DNA from: Candidatus Gastranaerophilales bacterium
GTDB lineage: Bacteria; Cyanobacteriota; Vampirovibrionia; Gastranaerophilales; Gastranaerophilaceae
DNA: 64,000 nt
Assembly: GCA_944323365.1 (NCBI GenBank)
Contig: CALUSG010000027.1
Location: 1 to 64,000 of the forward strand
Direction of reading: 5' to 3'
Position numbers and translations under genes: made by a program. Below are positions 3 through 42,227 of this stretch, piece by piece. Positions within the stretch are counted from its first letter, which is position 1. Every line of letters starts with the position of its first letter. The notes below the pieces were generated by a model. That model was not told the origin of the DNA and made no database searches. It saw only the letters and a program-made list of their open reading frames with translations.

Positions 3-1712
3 AGTTCGAGCGATTCAGACACCCTGCCTTCAGGCTCCCTTCATAGTAATACAACCGGCTCTTTGAATATAGCAATAGGCTCACCTGCATTAACATCAAA
101 CACAACCGGCAAATCTAATATAGCAATTGGTTCACATTCACTTAAATTCAATACCACAGGTTCAAGGAATGTTGCGATTGGTTCTGATTATAGCACTATG
201 GTGACTACAGATGATCCTCTTCCACCACTGGGGGCTCTACAATTCAATACTACCGGCTCATATAACATAGCAATCGGCTCCAGCAGTATGCGTAATAATA
301 GAATTGGAGGAGCAAATATAGGGATTGGTTATGAAGCCTTGATGTCTAATACCTCAACGGGAAATTTAATTGGAATAGGATATCAATCATTAAAAAATAA
401 TACTACGGGCGGAGGAAATACGGCAGTAGGTTATCAAACATTAATAAAAAACACAACAGGAGAGGGAAATAATGCATTTGGTTATGGTGCGTTAGCACTA
501 AATTCTATTGGGAACTATAATACGGCAATCGGAAATGATGCTTTAGCAGGTGGTGTTAAAACTGGTGAAACTTATAATGAGTCAGCAGCAAAAGATGTAG
601 GAAGTAATAATACAGCCATAGGATTTCATTCATTAATGAATAATCAAGGTGGTTCTAGTAACGTTGCTGTCGGAAGTGAGACAATGCTTAATAATACAAC
701 TGGAGGAAATAATACAGCCATAGGCTACCATGCGTTATTGAATAGTAATGGTGCTCATAATAACGTTGCCGTTGGAAGTGGAGCGTTAGCTGGTAGTGTT
801 GACTCTTTAGTTACGGGCTCAAATAATATTGCAATAGGTGTTGGAACTGCAAAAAAAATAACAAGCGGAGGAGGCAATATAAGTTTGGGCTATGAATCAT
901 TATCAAGTAATACAAGTGGTTCAAACAATATTGCTTTTGGAAGCTCTGCGTTGTTAAATAATGAAAGTGGTAGTAATAATATAGCAATAGGTGCAAATTC
1001 CTGTCTAAACGTATATAATAATAAGTCCAATATAACTTGTATAGGCAGCAGTTCAGGACCAAATTATGATAAACCTGTGCTTAATGATAATGAAAAGGTA
1101 ATTTATTTAGGTGACGCAAATACATATGTCTATATTCCCGGTAGGCTAGTTGTTGATAAAACTTTTCAAGTTAATAATACTCTTTATGTAGGTGAAAGAG
1201 GTAGTAAAAGTATAATAGTTTCATTGGGTAATAGAGCTTCATCAACCTTCGAATTAGAATACGGAACTGCAAATAATTTTACTGTTAGAGGTGGTTCAAT
1301 GAAAAGAATGCCCTCTACAGATTTTTTGAGTGACAGCAGATTGAAGAACGTTAATGGCGAGAATACAGCAGGGCTTGAAAAAGTCAGAGAATTAAAAGTA
1401 TTTGATTATACGTTCAAAAAAGACGAAGAAAAAACACCAAGAGTTGGTGTAATAGCACAGGATTTGCAAAAAGTATTTCCGGATGCTGTTAAAAAAGACG
1501 AGGACGGATATTTAAGAATACGTATGGAAGATATGTTCTATGCGGTTGTAAATTCTGTTAAAGAGCTTGATAAACTCGTTCAAGGACTTGTTAATGATGT
1601 TAAGCAAATTTTAGAAAAATTAACAGCTTATGACAAGAAAATTCAGTCACTTAAACAAGAAAACGCAGAGCTTAAGGCTCGTATTGATAAACTTGAAAAG
1701 CTTATTAAATAA
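3..1712 (+). CDS. Repeat fibre/adhesin with C-terminal S74 chaperone domain (5' partial)
   Basis: The frame is open from the window edge, so the N-terminus is missing; about 570 residues are visible. Roughly the first 60 percent is a series of 22-24-residue repeats of the form NTTG-xxN-x-AIG-xxAL, like the beta-roll heads of YadA-type trimeric adhesins and phage or bacterial fibres. A linker follows. At bases 1329-1346 SDSRLK opens a Peptidase_S74 domain (later GVIAQDLQKVFPDAV), the intramolecular chaperone that trimerises fibres and then cuts itself off at the Ser of the Ser/Lys motif. The last 50 residues are a Lys/Leu/Glu heptad coiled coil. A surface-exposed trimeric fibre is inferred; a phage-derived tail fibre is the alternative. 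No YadA membrane anchor is present. Confidence 0.75.
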   Translation, partial: SSSDSDTLPSGSLHSNTTGSLNIAIGSPALTSNTTGKSNIAIGSHSLKFNTTGSRNVAIGSDYSTMVTTDDPLPPLGALQFNTTGSYNIAIGSSSMRNNRIGGANIGIGYEALMSNTSTGNLIGIGYQSLKNNTTGGGNTAVGYQTLIKNTTGEGNNAFGYGALALNSIGNYNTAIGNDALAGGVKTGETYNESAAKDVGSNNTAIGFHSLMNNQGGSSNVAVGSETMLNNTTGGNNTAIGYHALLNSNGAHNNVAVGSGALAGSVDSLVTGSNNIAIGVGTAKKITSGGGNISLGYESLSSNTSGSNNIAFGSSALLNNESGSNNIAIGANSCLNVYNNKSNITCIGSSSGPNYDKPVLNDNEKVIYLGDANTYVYIPGRLVVDKTFQVNNTLYVGERGSKSIIVSLGNRASSTFELEYGTANNFTVRGGSMKRMPSTDFLSDSRLKNVNGENTAGLEKVRELKVFDYTFKKDEEKTPRVGVIAQDLQKVFPDAVKKDEDGYLRIRMEDMFYAVVNSVKELDKLVQGLVNDVKQILEKLTAYDKKIQSLKQENAELKARIDKLEKLIK

Positions 1713-20505: not shown

Positions 20506-21236
20506 TGATTAATATGTTTGTAAGGGTTTAAAAGGTTGGTTGAAGATGTTACTATATCAAGATTTGCTCCTACGGGTGTTTCTATAGCCTTTTGTTCAGG
20601 TTTTTTCTCTTCCACAGAGCTTTCTTTTCCTTCTTGCATTTTTGCATTAAATTTAGGGTTTTGATTCATTTTCTTCTCAACCTTGCTTGCTAAAGGTGTT
20701 GCTATTAAAGGTACTACAACACGTTTTCCGATAATAGTTGCTGCCGCAAGGTCGATTACATATTTGAATGCTCCCATTGCTTTTGCTTTTACATCGTTAT
20801 CATATATTTTATCAAATACAGTTTTTCTTGTACGGTTTGCATTTTCTGCCATCTGTTTTGTATGTAGTTTTGCAGCAATGTCTTCTTTGATTTTCGGATT
20901 AAATGATTTCTTAAATAGTTTGTTAAATAGCGGACCGGACATCTTTCTCATTAATAAGAATAAAAGTATCTGTGCCGCAATCATCAAAACTCCGTTTGTT
21001 AAATCTAACGCTGCTACAAATCTTCTTTTTTCTTCAGGAATTTTTTTGTTATTTAAACTTTGGGTTACATATTTATAACAACCTATACCGTCTTTTAATA
21101 TAATTGATGCTACGGTTACTGTTCCGATTGTTTTATCAAAATCTTTATCAAATTTATTTGCTAAAGCTTTTACCGGGGCTAATTTTGAGCCGCCTCCTAT
21201 TACATATGCTCCGACTTTATTTATAGGATTAACCAT
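20502..21236 (-). CDS. Lineage-type hypothetical membrane-associated protein
   Basis: 244 residues from the ATG at 21236, which has GGGAGG eight bases upstream (a GTG three codons earlier is less likely). Gly-rich amphipathic segments near the N-terminus (KVGAYVIGGGSKL) and two to three hydrophobic helices (around residues 80-100 and 160-185) suggest membrane association; the tail is charged and disordered. Overlaps the upstream gene by 8 nt, so the two are a translationally coupled pair. No known family. Confidence 0.6.
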   Translation of the reverse strand: MVNPINKVGAYVIGGGSKLAPVKALANKFDKDFDKTIGTVTVASIILKDGIGCYKYVTQSLNNKKIPEEKRRFVAALDLTNGVLMIAAQILLFLLMRKMSGPLFNKLFKKSFNPKIKEDIAAKLHTKQMAENANRTRKTVFDKIYDNDVKAKAMGAFKYVIDLAAATIIGKRVVVPLIATPLASKVEKKMNQNPKFNAKMQEGKESSVEEKKPEQKAIETPVGANLDIVTSSTNLLNPYKHINH

Positions 21237-22707
21237 TGTTTTCACCTCCCTTAGAAGCTTTCTTTACTCCTGATAATTTCGGGAAGAACAATTCCATTGC
21301 TCTTGGATATACCCAGTTCAAGGCATTGCAGGTTATTGGTAAGGTTATGCCTACTCCTATTAAAATTTGGATAATTTGGCTTATTCCGCTAAAGTGGTTT
21401 TTTACAAATCCTTTATAGCCTTTGATTATATCTTTATGTATTTTTTTGCTTAATTTAGCTATATCTGAATTAAATGTATCTGTATCGTGAAGTATTCCTC
21501 TTAAGAATTTGTCATTTTCTTTGAATGAACATACTTTCTTTATTTTATCTATTGTTGTTCTGATTGTATTATCTTCTATAGCAGATTTTGGATCTAATTT
21601 ATCTAATGAGAATTTTGTTATTATTTTATCAAGTTCGGCATTCCTGTCTGTCATAACTTTAAAGTATTTTTGTTGTGTATATTTGCCATCGCAGACATCT
21701 TTGATTGAATCTATACGTTTTAATGTATTGTTTATTCTGCTTAGACGTACATCTTCAGGTCTGTCTAACAATTCTTGTAATATTTCTTTTATTTCAGGAT
21801 TTTGTTCTTTGTTTAACAGATCTTTTAAATATTTTTCCAAACCTTCAAAGTCTGTATTGTTTTTCATTTGGGAGTTCAAAACGTCTGAACTAAATATTTC
21901 TTTTAATTTATCTTCATTATTAATCAACAAGTCTGCACGTTTTGAATAGAATGTTAATTTATCATTGTCAAGTTTTAAATCCTTGGCATCTTTTATGTAA
22001 CTGTCAATTTGTTGGTTGATTAATTTTGCGAGAGCTTTGTTGTCTAAGTATCTGTCACCTATCTTAATTTTTCCGGTCGCTTCAAAGCTGTTAGTTAAAT
22101 CATCCAGCTGTTTGCTTCCTATTTCATCTGCCAATCCTTTTAATTTAGCTTTATATTCTGCCTTTTCTGCTTTAAATGCTTTTCTTCCTTTAGAGAATTG
22201 ACTCCAAAAACTTGGTTTTTTGGTATTTTGTTGACTTAATTCTGCTTTTGCTTTTCTTTTTAGTGTCGCATCACTGTTTAATACGCTTTGATCTACGTAT
22301 AAATCAACATGTTTTGCTAATTCAGGGTCGTTAAATATTTTATCTATCCATTTGTTTATTGGTACCAAAGCTCCAACTTGAAATAATACCGCTAATATAG
22401 CTGATATCGGCTGACGCATTGCTGTATACCATTTGGTATCTCTTACTTTTTTCTTTTCTTCTTCGGAAGCTCCTTTAGGGGCTTTTACAAATGGGTTAGT
22501 TCCTATTACAAACGGGGCTACCGCACCTGTTCCTATTGAATTTATTACTATACCGCCTATTTCCCCTTTTATTCCGTTAATTCTATCGAATACATTAAAG
22601 GCTTTTTTCCCCGGTAAATTATTTCTTATAAATCTAGAAATATCTCCTGTCCCTTGAAAATTCGGCTGCCTTAAATAAGCTTGACTTGTTGCATTTTCTA
22701 CTTTCAT
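21229..22707 (-). CDS. Lineage-type hypothetical protein with NFQGT motif and long helical body
   Basis: 492 residues. NFQGT sits at residues 16-20, the same position as NFKGT in the gene at 40749-41108. A Gly-rich hydrophobic stretch (GGIVINSIGTGAVAPFVIG, residues 50-70), a further hydrophobic segment near 95-120, about 280 residues of charged helices, and a C-terminal hydrophobic segment (IIQILIGVGITL). Membrane-anchored helical scaffold is inferred. The leader carries TATATATATA 11 nt before the ATG. No known family. Confidence 0.6.
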   Translation of the reverse strand: MKVENATSQAYLRQPNFQGTGDISRFIRNNLPGKKAFNVFDRINGIKGEIGGIVINSIGTGAVAPFVIGTNPFVKAPKGASEEEKKKVRDTKWYTAMRQPISAILAVLFQVGALVPINKWIDKIFNDPELAKHVDLYVDQSVLNSDATLKRKAKAELSQQNTKKPSFWSQFSKGRKAFKAEKAEYKAKLKGLADEIGSKQLDDLTNSFEATGKIKIGDRYLDNKALAKLINQQIDSYIKDAKDLKLDNDKLTFYSKRADLLINNEDKLKEIFSSDVLNSQMKNNTDFEGLEKYLKDLLNKEQNPEIKEILQELLDRPEDVRLSRINNTLKRIDSIKDVCDGKYTQQKYFKVMTDRNAELDKIITKFSLDKLDPKSAIEDNTIRTTIDKIKKVCSFKENDKFLRGILHDTDTFNSDIAKLSKKIHKDIIKGYKGFVKNHFSGISQIIQILIGVGITLPITCNALNWVYPRAMELFFPKLSGVKKASKGGENNG

Positions 22708-32907: not shown

Positions 32908-34557
32908 TTACAATTCAAATAATTTATGTAAACGTTCACGAATATCATCTTCGTCTAAATCGTGCGTAATTTTATTCAAATCTATAGCCATTTGATAATA
33001 GTGAGCTGCGTCATTTGTGAACTCCATTTTTTCTGATGCTCTTGCCGCATTAAAGTAAGCAAGAGTATAGCTCGGGTTCAATTCAATGGCCTGCTCAAAA
33101 TATTCAAGTGCTTGCTCTGCATCCATTAATCCGTCTAAATAAAGAATTCCAAGATTATTATGTGCAAATTCATTTTCAGGATTCAAATCAACTGCCTTAT
33201 GGTATGCCACGAGTGCTTCTTCAAGATAATCTTTTTCCCAAAGTGCAATTCCGGCTTTTGAATATCCCCTGTAATCAGCAGGATTTAATGTAATAGCATC
33301 ACAATATGTTCTTATTGCCTTATCAACATCATACTCTGCCATATATATATCGCCTAATGCTAAATATAAATCGTAATTGTTAGGGTCTAATATTAAACCT
33401 GCCTGATATGTTGCAACAGCAGCTTCTGTATTTCCGTTAACTTCCATATATAATGCTCCGAGGGCCTGGCATACAATAGATGTCCATTCTCTATCAGGAT
33501 TCAGCTCAACAGCTTTTTGATAGTGGTGAATTGCATCTTCAAATAACTCTGCTTTTGTATAGGCAAAAGCAAGCGAATTATTGTAAAACGGGTTATTTGG
33601 TTCTAATTCAACTGCTAATTTAAAAGCACTTACTGAATTAATTTTATCGTCTTTTGCCATGTATAAATGACCTAATTCGTAATATATAGGAGCTTTGTTT
33701 TCGTCAAACTCTAAAAGTTTTTCATAACAGTCGATAGCTTCATCCTTTTTATCAGGATAAAATGTCTGTAATATGGTTGCCAATTTAGCCCAAACATCAC
33801 GATTAAGCGGATTTGCTTCAAGTACTTTTTGGTAGCTGTCAACTGCTATATCATATTCTTTGTTTTTTAAGGCTATATCGCCCATTCTGTTATAAAATAC
33901 TTCGTCGTGTTCTGTTTTTTCCACAGCTGTTTTGTAGATATTTTCAGCAGCCGGTATCATTTTGAATTTTTCACAAAGCTTGCCGAGTAAATTATATTTG
34001 AAAACCGAAAAATCATCGGCTATGTTTTTATAAAACATGTTAATTGCAGGCTTATCCCAGGCTAACATCATGCTGCCTGTTAAAAAATAGTATAAGAAAC
34101 TTGCATAGTCGCCTAAATTACCGTCTTGATTGTTTATTTTTTGTAAAATAGCCTGCGATAAAACAAGTCTTGGCCTTGCTGATTTTAATTTGCTCATTTT
34201 AATTGCGGATTTAAATTCTTTTTCTGCAGAACTGTAATCCTGAGCGAGTTTCATGAAGAAACCTGTATACATATGTGCGTTCATATTTTCGGGAGCTAAT
34301 GAACAAGCTGTTTTGCATTGTTCTATAGCTGTAGAAATACTGATTTGCCCCTGCTCCCACATTAAACTTGCCAGTCTGTAGTAGCTTTCGGGAATTGTAG
34401 GGTCAAGTTTTACCGCATCTATATAATATTCTATTGCCTCTTGTAAATCACGATTTTGTTGGCGTATTAAATATCTTTCGTGTGCTGTTCTGGCTTTTTC
34501 TAGTGCATTTTGTGCTTTTTCATTGTTGTTAGCACGTATTATAATCTGTTCTGACAT
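32908..34557 (-). CDS. Tetratricopeptide-repeat protein
   Basis: 549 residues from the ATG at 34557 (GGAG six bases upstream). Nearly the whole protein is TPR helical pairs (patterns such as AIRTYCDAITLNPADYRGYS and EYFEQAIELNPSYTLAYFNAA at about 34-residue spacing, twelve or more units). No signal peptide, so a cytosolic scaffold. TPR partners cannot be deduced from sequence. Convergent with trxB with a 5-nt gap and no terminator. Confidence 0.85.
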   Translation of the reverse strand: MSEQIIIRANNNEKAQNALEKARTAHERYLIRQQNRDLQEAIEYYIDAVKLDPTIPESYYRLASLMWEQGQISISTAIEQCKTACSLAPENMNAHMYTGFFMKLAQDYSSAEKEFKSAIKMSKLKSARPRLVLSQAILQKINNQDGNLGDYASFLYYFLTGSMMLAWDKPAINMFYKNIADDFSVFKYNLLGKLCEKFKMIPAAENIYKTAVEKTEHDEVFYNRMGDIALKNKEYDIAVDSYQKVLEANPLNRDVWAKLATILQTFYPDKKDEAIDCYEKLLEFDENKAPIYYELGHLYMAKDDKINSVSAFKLAVELEPNNPFYNNSLAFAYTKAELFEDAIHHYQKAVELNPDREWTSIVCQALGALYMEVNGNTEAAVATYQAGLILDPNNYDLYLALGDIYMAEYDVDKAIRTYCDAITLNPADYRGYSKAGIALWEKDYLEEALVAYHKAVDLNPENEFAHNNLGILYLDGLMDAEQALEYFEQAIELNPSYTLAYFNAARASEKMEFTNDAAHYYQMAIDLNKITHDLDEDDIRERLHKLFEL

Positions 34558-34681
34558 TCTGAGCTCCAATTATGTGTATAATCTATGTCGGCTCTAAAAA
34601 TTTATGACTTTATTAATTATATAAAATATACTCTATTTGTATTAGATAAATGATTAGTGTTTGTTAAATTTATATTCGTAA

Positions 34682-40748: not shown

Positions 40749-41108
40749 TTATATCAATTCCTCACTAACTTCTATATCTTCAAGATTTGAATAATCTTTT
40801 ATTGTTTTGACAACGTTTGTTTGATTAGCTAGCGGGATATAGTCGTTATTTATTACTAAAAGTAGTGTGCCATCTTTATCAAATAAACTTTCAGTCGATT
40901 TTTTTAAATAATTATTATCATATTCTTTGGCTAATTTCCTTTCCAGGTTGTTATTGTTGTCGTAGAAATATTCAGTTGTCGATTTAGTTTTTCCATTTTC
41001 GATGACTTGCTCGCCGGTAAGATTATTATTTGCATCTTTAAATCTTATTGTGCCTTTAAAATTTTGTTTATTATATGTATTTCCTAAACTAACACTATTA
41101 ATTCGCAT
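40749..41108 (-). CDS. Lineage-type hypothetical protein with NFKGT motif
   Basis: 119 residues from the ATG at 41108, with GGAGG seven bases upstream. NFKGT at residues 16-20, then TGEQVIENGKTKS, TTEYFYDNNNNLERK, which read as short beta-hairpin repeats like YD/MORN-type wrap-around sheets. No signal peptide. The leader has TATATATATA 12 nt before the ATG, as in the gene at 21229-22707. No known family. Confidence 0.6.
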   Translation of the reverse strand: MRINSVSLGNTYNKQNFKGTIRFKDANNNLTGEQVIENGKTKSTTEYFYDNNNNLERKLAKEYDNNYLKKSTESLFDKDGTLLLVINNDYIPLANQTNVVKTIKDYSNLEDIEVSEELI

Positions 41109-41168
41109 TTTATACCTCCATATATATATAAGACTAAACAAATTTTTTTTTGCTATTAAATTTTCAAA

Positions 41169-42101
41169 TTAAATAATTTTTATTTTAAATATATTTTTAC
41201 CAACTATATTTTCTGACAAATTTTTTGAAAATTGTATAAATTCTTTGGCATATTTTCCATTAAGAAGCTCAAATTCTATTGTATTATCCGAATTGTCTCT
41301 TATAAAATCAATAGTATTTTCAACGATATATGTGAGAGGAAGTTTTTGCCCGTCGGGTAATTTGCTGGAAATTTTATTTCTTAATAGAAGTGTATATAAA
41401 TATTCTTTTGAATTTGTAAATCGTTTTCTTAAAATAAGTTTGTTAAATTCTTGTTCACTGGGCCTTGTGAGTTTTTTGTCAATAATTTTATTTTCTTCAA
41501 TATATTTTAAAAGTTCATATTTTTTTATTGTAGTTTTGGCACTTATACTTATTAGATTTGGTTGTTTTATTAATAGGTCAAAAACTTCATTTGTTGGTAT
41601 ATTCAGCTTATTAGATATCGTATAAATTTTATTTTTTAACGTTTTTGCTTTTGTTGTAAAGATAAAAGGATTATAAAGGGCACTTTTTATGCATTTTTCC
41701 GGAGTTAATCCGTAATTAGCAAATGCTTTAGTAAGCCCCATTATATTTTTTTCAATTGTTTCGGGAGAGTAAGAGGCCAAAACAGGATTTCTTTTTACGC
41801 ATTTAATGTATTGTTTTAAAGTTAAACCTGCCTCAGCAAACTTTTTTTGTGTTTCAGTAATATTGTGATACACTTGTTCCGGCCTTTGTATCAATAGGCT
41901 AACGTTCATTCTAGCCATTTTTAGACATTCATCAAAAGTAAGGCCTTCTTGAGAAAAGTCATTAGCAATAGTTTTTATGCGTGCAATGTTACCTTCGTTT
42001 AATTGGTCATTTTTTAGACGCTCACGGTAGCGTTCTCGTATTTTTTTAGAGTGGCCTGAGTATTTTTGTGTTTCGATTTGTTTTATTTTCATATTACTCA
42101 T
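41169..42101 (-). CDS. Protein of tandem 39-residue helical repeats (mTERF/TALE-like solenoid)
   Basis: 310 residues from the ATG at 42101 (another at 42092; a TTG at 42161 would add a hydrophobic stretch). After a basic N-terminus (KKIRERYRERLK) come three repeats exactly 39 residues apart, GLT at residues 53, 92 and 131, followed by N-P-type turns at 105 and 144, and a fourth, shorter unit with QPNL near 180. Consensus: F-x3-GLT-x3-CIK-x4-NP-x-L-x5-PET-x3-NI. Such units are typical of superhelical nucleic-acid-binding solenoids (mTERF, TALE), but nucleic-acid binding is inference. The C-terminal 100 residues are basic and helical. N-terminal KYSG may be a variant of the NF(Q/K)G motif. Confidence 0.6.
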   Translation of the reverse strand: MSNMKIKQIETQKYSGHSKKIRERYRERLKNDQLNEGNIARIKTIANDFSQEGLTFDECLKMARMNVSLLIQRPEQVYHNITETQKKFAEAGLTLKQYIKCVKRNPVLASYSPETIEKNIMGLTKAFANYGLTPEKCIKSALYNPFIFTTKAKTLKNKIYTISNKLNIPTNEVFDLLIKQPNLISISAKTTIKKYELLKYIEENKIIDKKLTRPSEQEFNKLILRKRFTNSKEYLYTLLLRNKISSKLPDGQKLPLTYIVENTIDFIRDNSDNTIEFELLNGKYAKEFIQFSKNLSENIVGKNIFKIKII

Positions 42102-42227
42102 AAAGCTCAAAAAAAAAATTTTTGCTGTTCCAAAAATAAATGACTTAACATTTTTTATCAAATTATTGCAATTATACTATGTTCGTAATAGTATAAACAA
42201 GCATATACATCATATTGAAGGATTGCA

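Follow-up and report, generated by a model that had tools for sequence, protein, structure and literature searches.

The gene at positions 41169-42101 (minus strand, stop codon included) of the window, the 64,000-nucleotide stretch of Candidatus Gastranaerophilales DNA analysed here, encodes a 310-residue protein, termed P0001, which is a short bacterial mTERF-like solenoid of the pTERF type, comprising four three-helix repeats, a basic N-terminus bearing a tag-like segment and a family-specific C-terminal domain. The combined analysis suggests that P0001 is probably a sequence-specific binder of the DNA major groove acting in transcription; its sister proteins would dock on RNA polymerase, while P0001, which is headless, would act on DNA alone.

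The plus strand of the locus is full of stop codons. P0001 most likely starts at one of two in-frame ATG codons, at 42101 or at 42092 (MKIKQ...), the latter agreeing with the orthologues, and an alternative upstream TTG at 42161 would extend the protein to 330 residues. All elements of P0001 lie on the minus strand. The N-terminal tag-like segment MKIKQIETQKYSGH (42051-42092) is predicted to be disordered, with pLDDT values below 50 for residues 1-17, and its style (MKIx...FxG) recurs at the N-termini of P0001 paralogues and of unrelated neighbours. A basic helix, assigned from the AF2 model and from charge, extends from residue 18 to 30 (42012-42050) and precedes repeat 1 (residues 36-74; 41880-41996), repeat 2 (residues 75-113; 41763-41879), repeat 3 (residues 114-152; 41646-41762) and a degenerate repeat 4 of 36 residues (about 153-188; 41538-41645). 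The S-loop prolines of repeats 2, 3 and 4 are P106, P145 and P181, respectively, and Val-68 occupies in repeat 1 the place of the S-loop proline of the orthologues. The AF2 model (mean pLDDT 89) displays three helices per repeat, of long, medium and short length, as exemplified by residues 74-87, 95-104 and 106-110. The C-terminal domain (residues 189-310; 41172-41537), which comprises helices followed by a β-α-β end, is common to the short and the sigma-headed members of the family and matches no Pfam family.

The 39-residue repetition reported in the earlier note is confirmed. GLT motifs at residues 53, 92 and 131 are spaced exactly 39 residues apart, a further GLT at residue 122 lying off the pattern, and each of these three units displays F-x3-GLT (F49, F88 and F127). 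The N-P turn proposed for all units holds in units 2 and 3 and is replaced by N-V in unit 1, and the proposed PET is absent from unit 3, which reads KAKT; the fourth unit is degenerate, as had been noticed. The description of the repeats as exact is nevertheless too strong for P0001, since their spacing is exact but their sequence has diverged; near-identical arrays are found in its relatives. Ungapped self-alignment of P0001 gave its best score at an offset of 39 (97, against maxima of 33 in 500 shuffles at that offset and 54 in 100 shuffles over all offsets), and the same period is stronger in six orthologues from other genomes (scores of 123-167). The basic flanks are also real, residues 1-35 having a net charge of +6 and residues 189-310 one of +8; the whole protein has a net charge of +22 and a pI of 9.7, and a Lys or Arg at position -2 relative to the S-loop proline is found in 99 of 121 repeats of the family.

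Of the two likenesses first suggested, mTERF and TALE, that to mTERF is borne out by sequence and fold alike. Searching Pfam with P0001 returned a single family, mTERF (PF02536; 32.1 bits against a gathering score of 23.1, E=7e-8), and each of the seven sequences in the orthologue alignment matches this family. Structural similarity search of the predicted model against the PDB with Foldseek revealed mTERF structures at every rank from 1 to 18 (probability 0.98-1.00), including MTERF3, MTERF1 with DNA, MTERF4 and the ciliate mS93. The modest TM-scores (0.37-0.47 by query length) are what would be expected of superhelices that differ in length and pitch. The family profile matched MTERF3 at 1e-7, and its top sequence matches include the ciliate mitoribosomal mTERF mS93. 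The proline that caps the central helix is present in three of the four P0001 repeats, in repeat 1 of six of the seven aligned sequences and in 105 of 121 repeats family-wide. Membership of the TALE group, in contrast, is rejected on repeat length, helix count and fold matches. TALE repeats have two helices, those of P0001 (39 or 36 residues) have three, and no TALE was found among the Foldseek matches; thus, the TALE reading is unsupported. Bacterial mTERF-like tandem-repeat proteins from gut metagenomes, with 3-11 three-helix units, have been described as pTERFs, mainly from Bacillota MAGs (Hu et al. 2024, PMC11417379). Sequence-specific binding of double-stranded DNA was shown for pTERF1, which binds ACTNNNAGTC with a Kd of 1.87 nM, and for pTERF2, which binds a different motif (PMC11417379).

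The genome encoding P0001, as covered by sequence searches and one 20-kb stretch, carries three paralogues of 719, 705 and 591 residues, encoded by overlapping minus-strand genes on contig C64, two of which match mTERF (E=2e-26 and 5e-24). These mTERF-array genes (L009:10514-16527, minus strand) overlap end to start by ~20 bases and lie downstream of mnmG, as if forming one transcript. In many long members of the family, the N-terminal ~240 residues are related to sigma-70. This head keeps, in order, regions 2.1-2.2, 3.2 and 4 but is without regions 2.3-3.1. The matches of its profile to SigB (PDB code 8x6g; E=7.7e-5) and SigA (PDB code 7l7b; E=9.8e-5) span the 3.2 linker and region 4; region 2.1-2.2 is matched separately and more weakly. 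TIGR02937 (NCBIfam sigma70-ECF) is recognised in 11 of 19 heads (best 4e-9) and Pfam sigma-70 region 4 scores above its cut-off in paralogue P0002, region 4 being eroded in paralogues P0003 and P0004. The 50 listed Foldseek ranks of the head model (pLDDT 81) are all sigma factors or sigma/RNA polymerase complexes (probabilities 0.94-1.0), a few of them integrative models whose titles name RNA polymerase alone; TM-scores are low, about 0.3, against any single sigma structure. In the SigB alignment, the 62 residues 76-137 of SigB stand opposite about 11 head residues; in sigma-70 factors, the regions that read the -10 and extended -10 elements lie in this stretch. The D-x-x-Q motif of region 2.2 is highly conserved (Gln in 19 and Asp in 17 of 19 heads), its Gln being the sole invariant residue besides the start Met. 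D-x-x-Q is presumably part of the core-polymerase interface (D403/Q406 in E. coli); a paper search for this role found no direct source. An identity of the head with LuxR/GerE was rejected, as GerE matches are weak and confined to seven members, and the fold together with the collinear SigA/SigB matches favours sigma. Profile searches and sequence inspection revealed no sigma region of any kind in P0001.

Two variants of this architecture were observed in relatives. At L054:1463-5923 (plus strand), a 1,487-residue HD phosphohydrolase-domain protein takes the place of the mTERF array behind the initial part of the sigma head; this fusion is read as a recombinant or an assembly join because a truncated mTERF paralogue adjoins it. 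At L068:781-1140 (plus strand), a family member carries a short HTH-like head (GASFTQIAERFGINRDSAW) replacing the sigma head.

The named relatives belong to Candidatus Gastranaerophilales MAGs. Family members were found in 34 of the 386 genomes of the phylum sample, every positive lying in the taxonomic family of P0001 itself. A full-length orthologue is present in only one of 16 genomes of the genus, namely that of P0001, and the closest orthologues, from genus g7, group with P0001 in a tree of C-terminal parts (support 96/94), which suggests either that the gene moved between genera or that it was lost heavily. The collected family sequences contain 3 to 12 repeats per protein, in two forms of 36 and 39-41 residues. 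The tree splits these two forms (support 98/96), and the sigma head is probably ancestral because both sides of the split include headed members. The short clade containing P0001 is nested in the 39-residue clade, which has head-bearing members, beside L024 (401 residues, repeats from residue 50); the nine short proteins are united by a moderately supported branch (82/71). Tree and domain layout thus make P0001 probably a short member whose branch lost the sigma head. No conserved operon context of the family was seen across genera. Carriage by phages or plasmids was rejected: paralogue P0004 had no tblastn match in phages or plasmids, and P0001 and A3 had none in scans of viral contigs. PHROGs matches of P0001 were weak (E 0.08 or worse) and made no sense, and a 23,026-residue open frame at G007:C1 consists of masked bases and represents no protein.

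Variability along the repeats was ranked in 19 arrays of constant register over 35 positions, numbered from the S-loop proline. The three most variable positions are -1, +4 and +1. Human MTERF1 has its S-loop prolines along the DNA major groove and reads bases directly through R162, R202, R251, R350 and R387 (PMC4705650). Numbered in the same manner, with every residue checked landing on the correct letter, R202, R350 and F243 of MTERF1 fall at +1, F322 at +4, R162 at -2 and R251 at +9. F243 and F322 act in base stacking, and PDB entries of their substitutions are among the Foldseek listings. When all position pairs are ranked by variability, the pair suggested by MTERF1, (+1, +4), is in the top 0.5%. 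Although taken from different proteins, the 36- and 39-residue arrays have variability profiles that correlate over positions -11 to +8 (Spearman 0.57, p=0.009). The L073 array includes five repeats nearly identical outside the S-loop stretch; six of its eight variable positions lie within the eight-residue S-loop stretch -1 to +6 (Fisher p=2e-4), where dN/dS is ~2.9 against 0.04 elsewhere, the L073 positions having been picked post hoc. Residues at -1 and +1 are mostly Gln, His, Arg, Lys, Ser, Thr or Ala. Exposed positions vary in any repeat protein, and in the 36-residue form positions -20, -24 and -19, exposed on the first helix, are as variable as those of the S-loop. A dN/dS above 1 at the chosen positions was found in only three of nine arrays, and position +9, that of R251 in MTERF1, is not hypervariable in the family. 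P0001 itself may read little sequence, because its +1 residues are Ser, Val, Phe and Asn and its repeat 1 is without the S-loop proline.

Together, these features are best explained if the solenoid, like MTERF1 and pTERF1/2, lies along the major groove of the double-stranded DNA that it binds, and if the bases are read mainly by the residues around the S-loop proline of each repeat (-1, +1 and +4). The head-bearing sisters would dock on the RNA polymerase core through D-x-x-Q and region 4, and the repeat array would substitute for the missing -10-reading part and bring the polymerase to chosen sites. The headed members would thus be sigma-like factors whose address is set by the array, and the outcome could be either the start or the block of transcription. 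P0001, with its array and C-terminal domain only, would therefore act without polymerase contact, as a roadblock terminator or a repressor, or else as a competitor at the sites of its headed sisters. A bolder form of this proposal, which is put forward tentatively as a possibility, is that the headed sisters constitute a new type of promoter-specificity factor in which a sigma-70 minus its -10 reader is steered by a modular mTERF array with a readable and possibly programmable -1/+1/+4 code, P0001 being a headless derivative acting at similar sites.

The sigma-like half of this explanation, though not its DNA-binding half, competes with the proposal that the headed members are decoys, or anti-sigma-like, holding the polymerase core or blocking at array-chosen sites with no initiation. 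The -10-melting region 2.3-2.4 is missing from the head, such that melting would need another route, and MTERF1 itself is a roadblock terminator (PMC4705650). Most heads, however, keep regions 3.2 and 4, which a mere decoy would not need, and MTERF1 itself unwinds DNA and flips bases (PMC4705650), leaving the decoy proposal rather doubtful. That P0001 would instead bind RNA in ribosome assembly or RNA processing, like MTERF3/MTERF4 and mTERF9, the head of its sisters being a relic or a generic HTH, is unlikely. The top fold matches include MTERF3 and MTERF4, mS93 is a top sequence match, the protein is basic, and MTERF4, plant mTERF9 and mS93 are RNA-acting mTERFs, several mTERFs acting on rRNA (PMC8998825); yet the head displays an ordered sigma-70 layout and no lone HTH, the published pTERF relatives bind double-stranded DNA specifically, and a gene with so patchy a distribution in its genus is unlike that of a housekeeping ribosome factor.

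A solenoid that binds proteins, for example as a co-regulator, without sequence-specific nucleic acid contact is less probable still. Many α-solenoids do bind proteins, solved NSUN4-MTERF4 complexes are among the fold matches and few polar residues occupy +1 in P0001, but the conserved basic residue at -2, the high pI of nearly all members, the variation at base-contact positions and the known DNA binding of MTERF1 and the pTERFs argue against it. Export of the proteins to act in a host or neighbour cell, as TALEs do, is the most improbable of these readings: the disordered, conserved MKIx..FxG tag, shared by the family and by unrelated nearby proteins, would then be a sorting signal, but it is tied to no secretion system or known signal, and the sigma head suggests that the target is the polymerase of the bacterium itself. 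Major-groove DNA binding in transcription is thus retained as the preferred reading.

Several further observations concern the window and related loci. A disordered-looking N-terminal tag, M-K/R-I/V-x(4-20)-F-x-G/A/S, is common to unrelated proteins of the lineage and was located in the window at 21229-22707, 40749-41141 and 41169-42101 (all minus strand), and also at L056:6883-7443, L056:7541-8416 and L052:6791-7096. This shared tag resembles a sorting or processing signal that has so far escaped recognition. The window also encodes a Peptidase_S74 (endosialidase chaperone) protein with NIAIG repeats (63-1712, plus strand), similar-looking to a protein (L009:116-1123, plus strand) encoded on C64, the contig of the mTERF paralogues, and a strong TPR-array protein (32908-34569, minus strand; TPR_11 E=1e-44).

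The earlier note had seen in P0001 a candidate for an undescribed DNA/RNA-binding family. Bacterial mTERF-like DNA readers are already a known kind of protein, because sequence-specific binders of this type were published as pTERFs in 2024 (PMC11417379); the new side appears to be the family of P0001, with its sigma-70-like heads and with hypervariable residues at the positions that would read bases. The main text of that paper uses none of the words sigma, HTH and Gastranaerophilales (PMC11417379). In the open-licence literature searched, no further paper using the name pTERF for bacteria was found, nor a sigma-70-mTERF fusion, nor a match of hypervariable positions to the base-contact positions of MTERF1. 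The sigma-fused members are the part that a specialist would find surprising. If the proposal is true, there is a bacterial family in which single proteins join polymerase docking to a DNA reader that is modular, duplicates and diversifies. Such a naturally occurring "programmable sigma factor" would represent a new bacterial way of choosing genes to switch on and a new architecture beside the few known DNA-reading repeat proteins (TALE, pTERF, STAR). It would also make a strong case for bacterial mTERF repeats with clear Pfam-level similarity and would bear on the origin of organelle mTERFs, because the bacteria that carry the family are cyanobacterial relatives without photosynthesis. With repeats so nearly identical, a code could be tested directly by SELEX.

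Among known systems, TALE and TALE-like proteins (BurrH, MOrTL, STAR) resemble the best-preserved relatives of P0001 in having near-identical tandem repeats that differ at few positions, but theirs are two-helix repeats of 33-35 residues (carrying an RVD in TALE), and P0001 shows no sequence or fold match to them. The eukaryotic mTERFs of PF02536 (human MTERF1-4 and plant mTERFs) share with P0001 the repeat fold, the proline-capped central helix and the Pfam-level match. They are, however, nucleus-encoded organelle proteins with diverged motifs of ~30-33 residues, whereas the P0001 family is bacterial and displays tandem arrays of 36 or 39 residues, its own C-terminal domain and, in the sisters, a sigma head. 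P0001, on a bacterial contig with bacterial neighbours and congeners, is neither nucleus-encoded nor organelle-targeted, a trait that marks the eukaryotic branch and not the fold. The sigma-70 factors SigA and SigB are resembled by the paralogue heads in the ordered regions 2.1-2.2, 3.2 and 4 and in the conserved D-x-x-Q; in contrast to these factors, the paralogues lack regions 2.3-3.1 and have an mTERF array appended, and P0001 is headless. With pTERF1 and pTERF2, finally, the P0001 family shares a bacterial origin and tandem three-helix mTERF-like repeats. pTERF1 is stated to be without the conserved mTERF proline/leucine pattern (PMC11417379), and by that description the P0001 family differs from it in keeping the capping proline and in scoring with Pfam mTERF.
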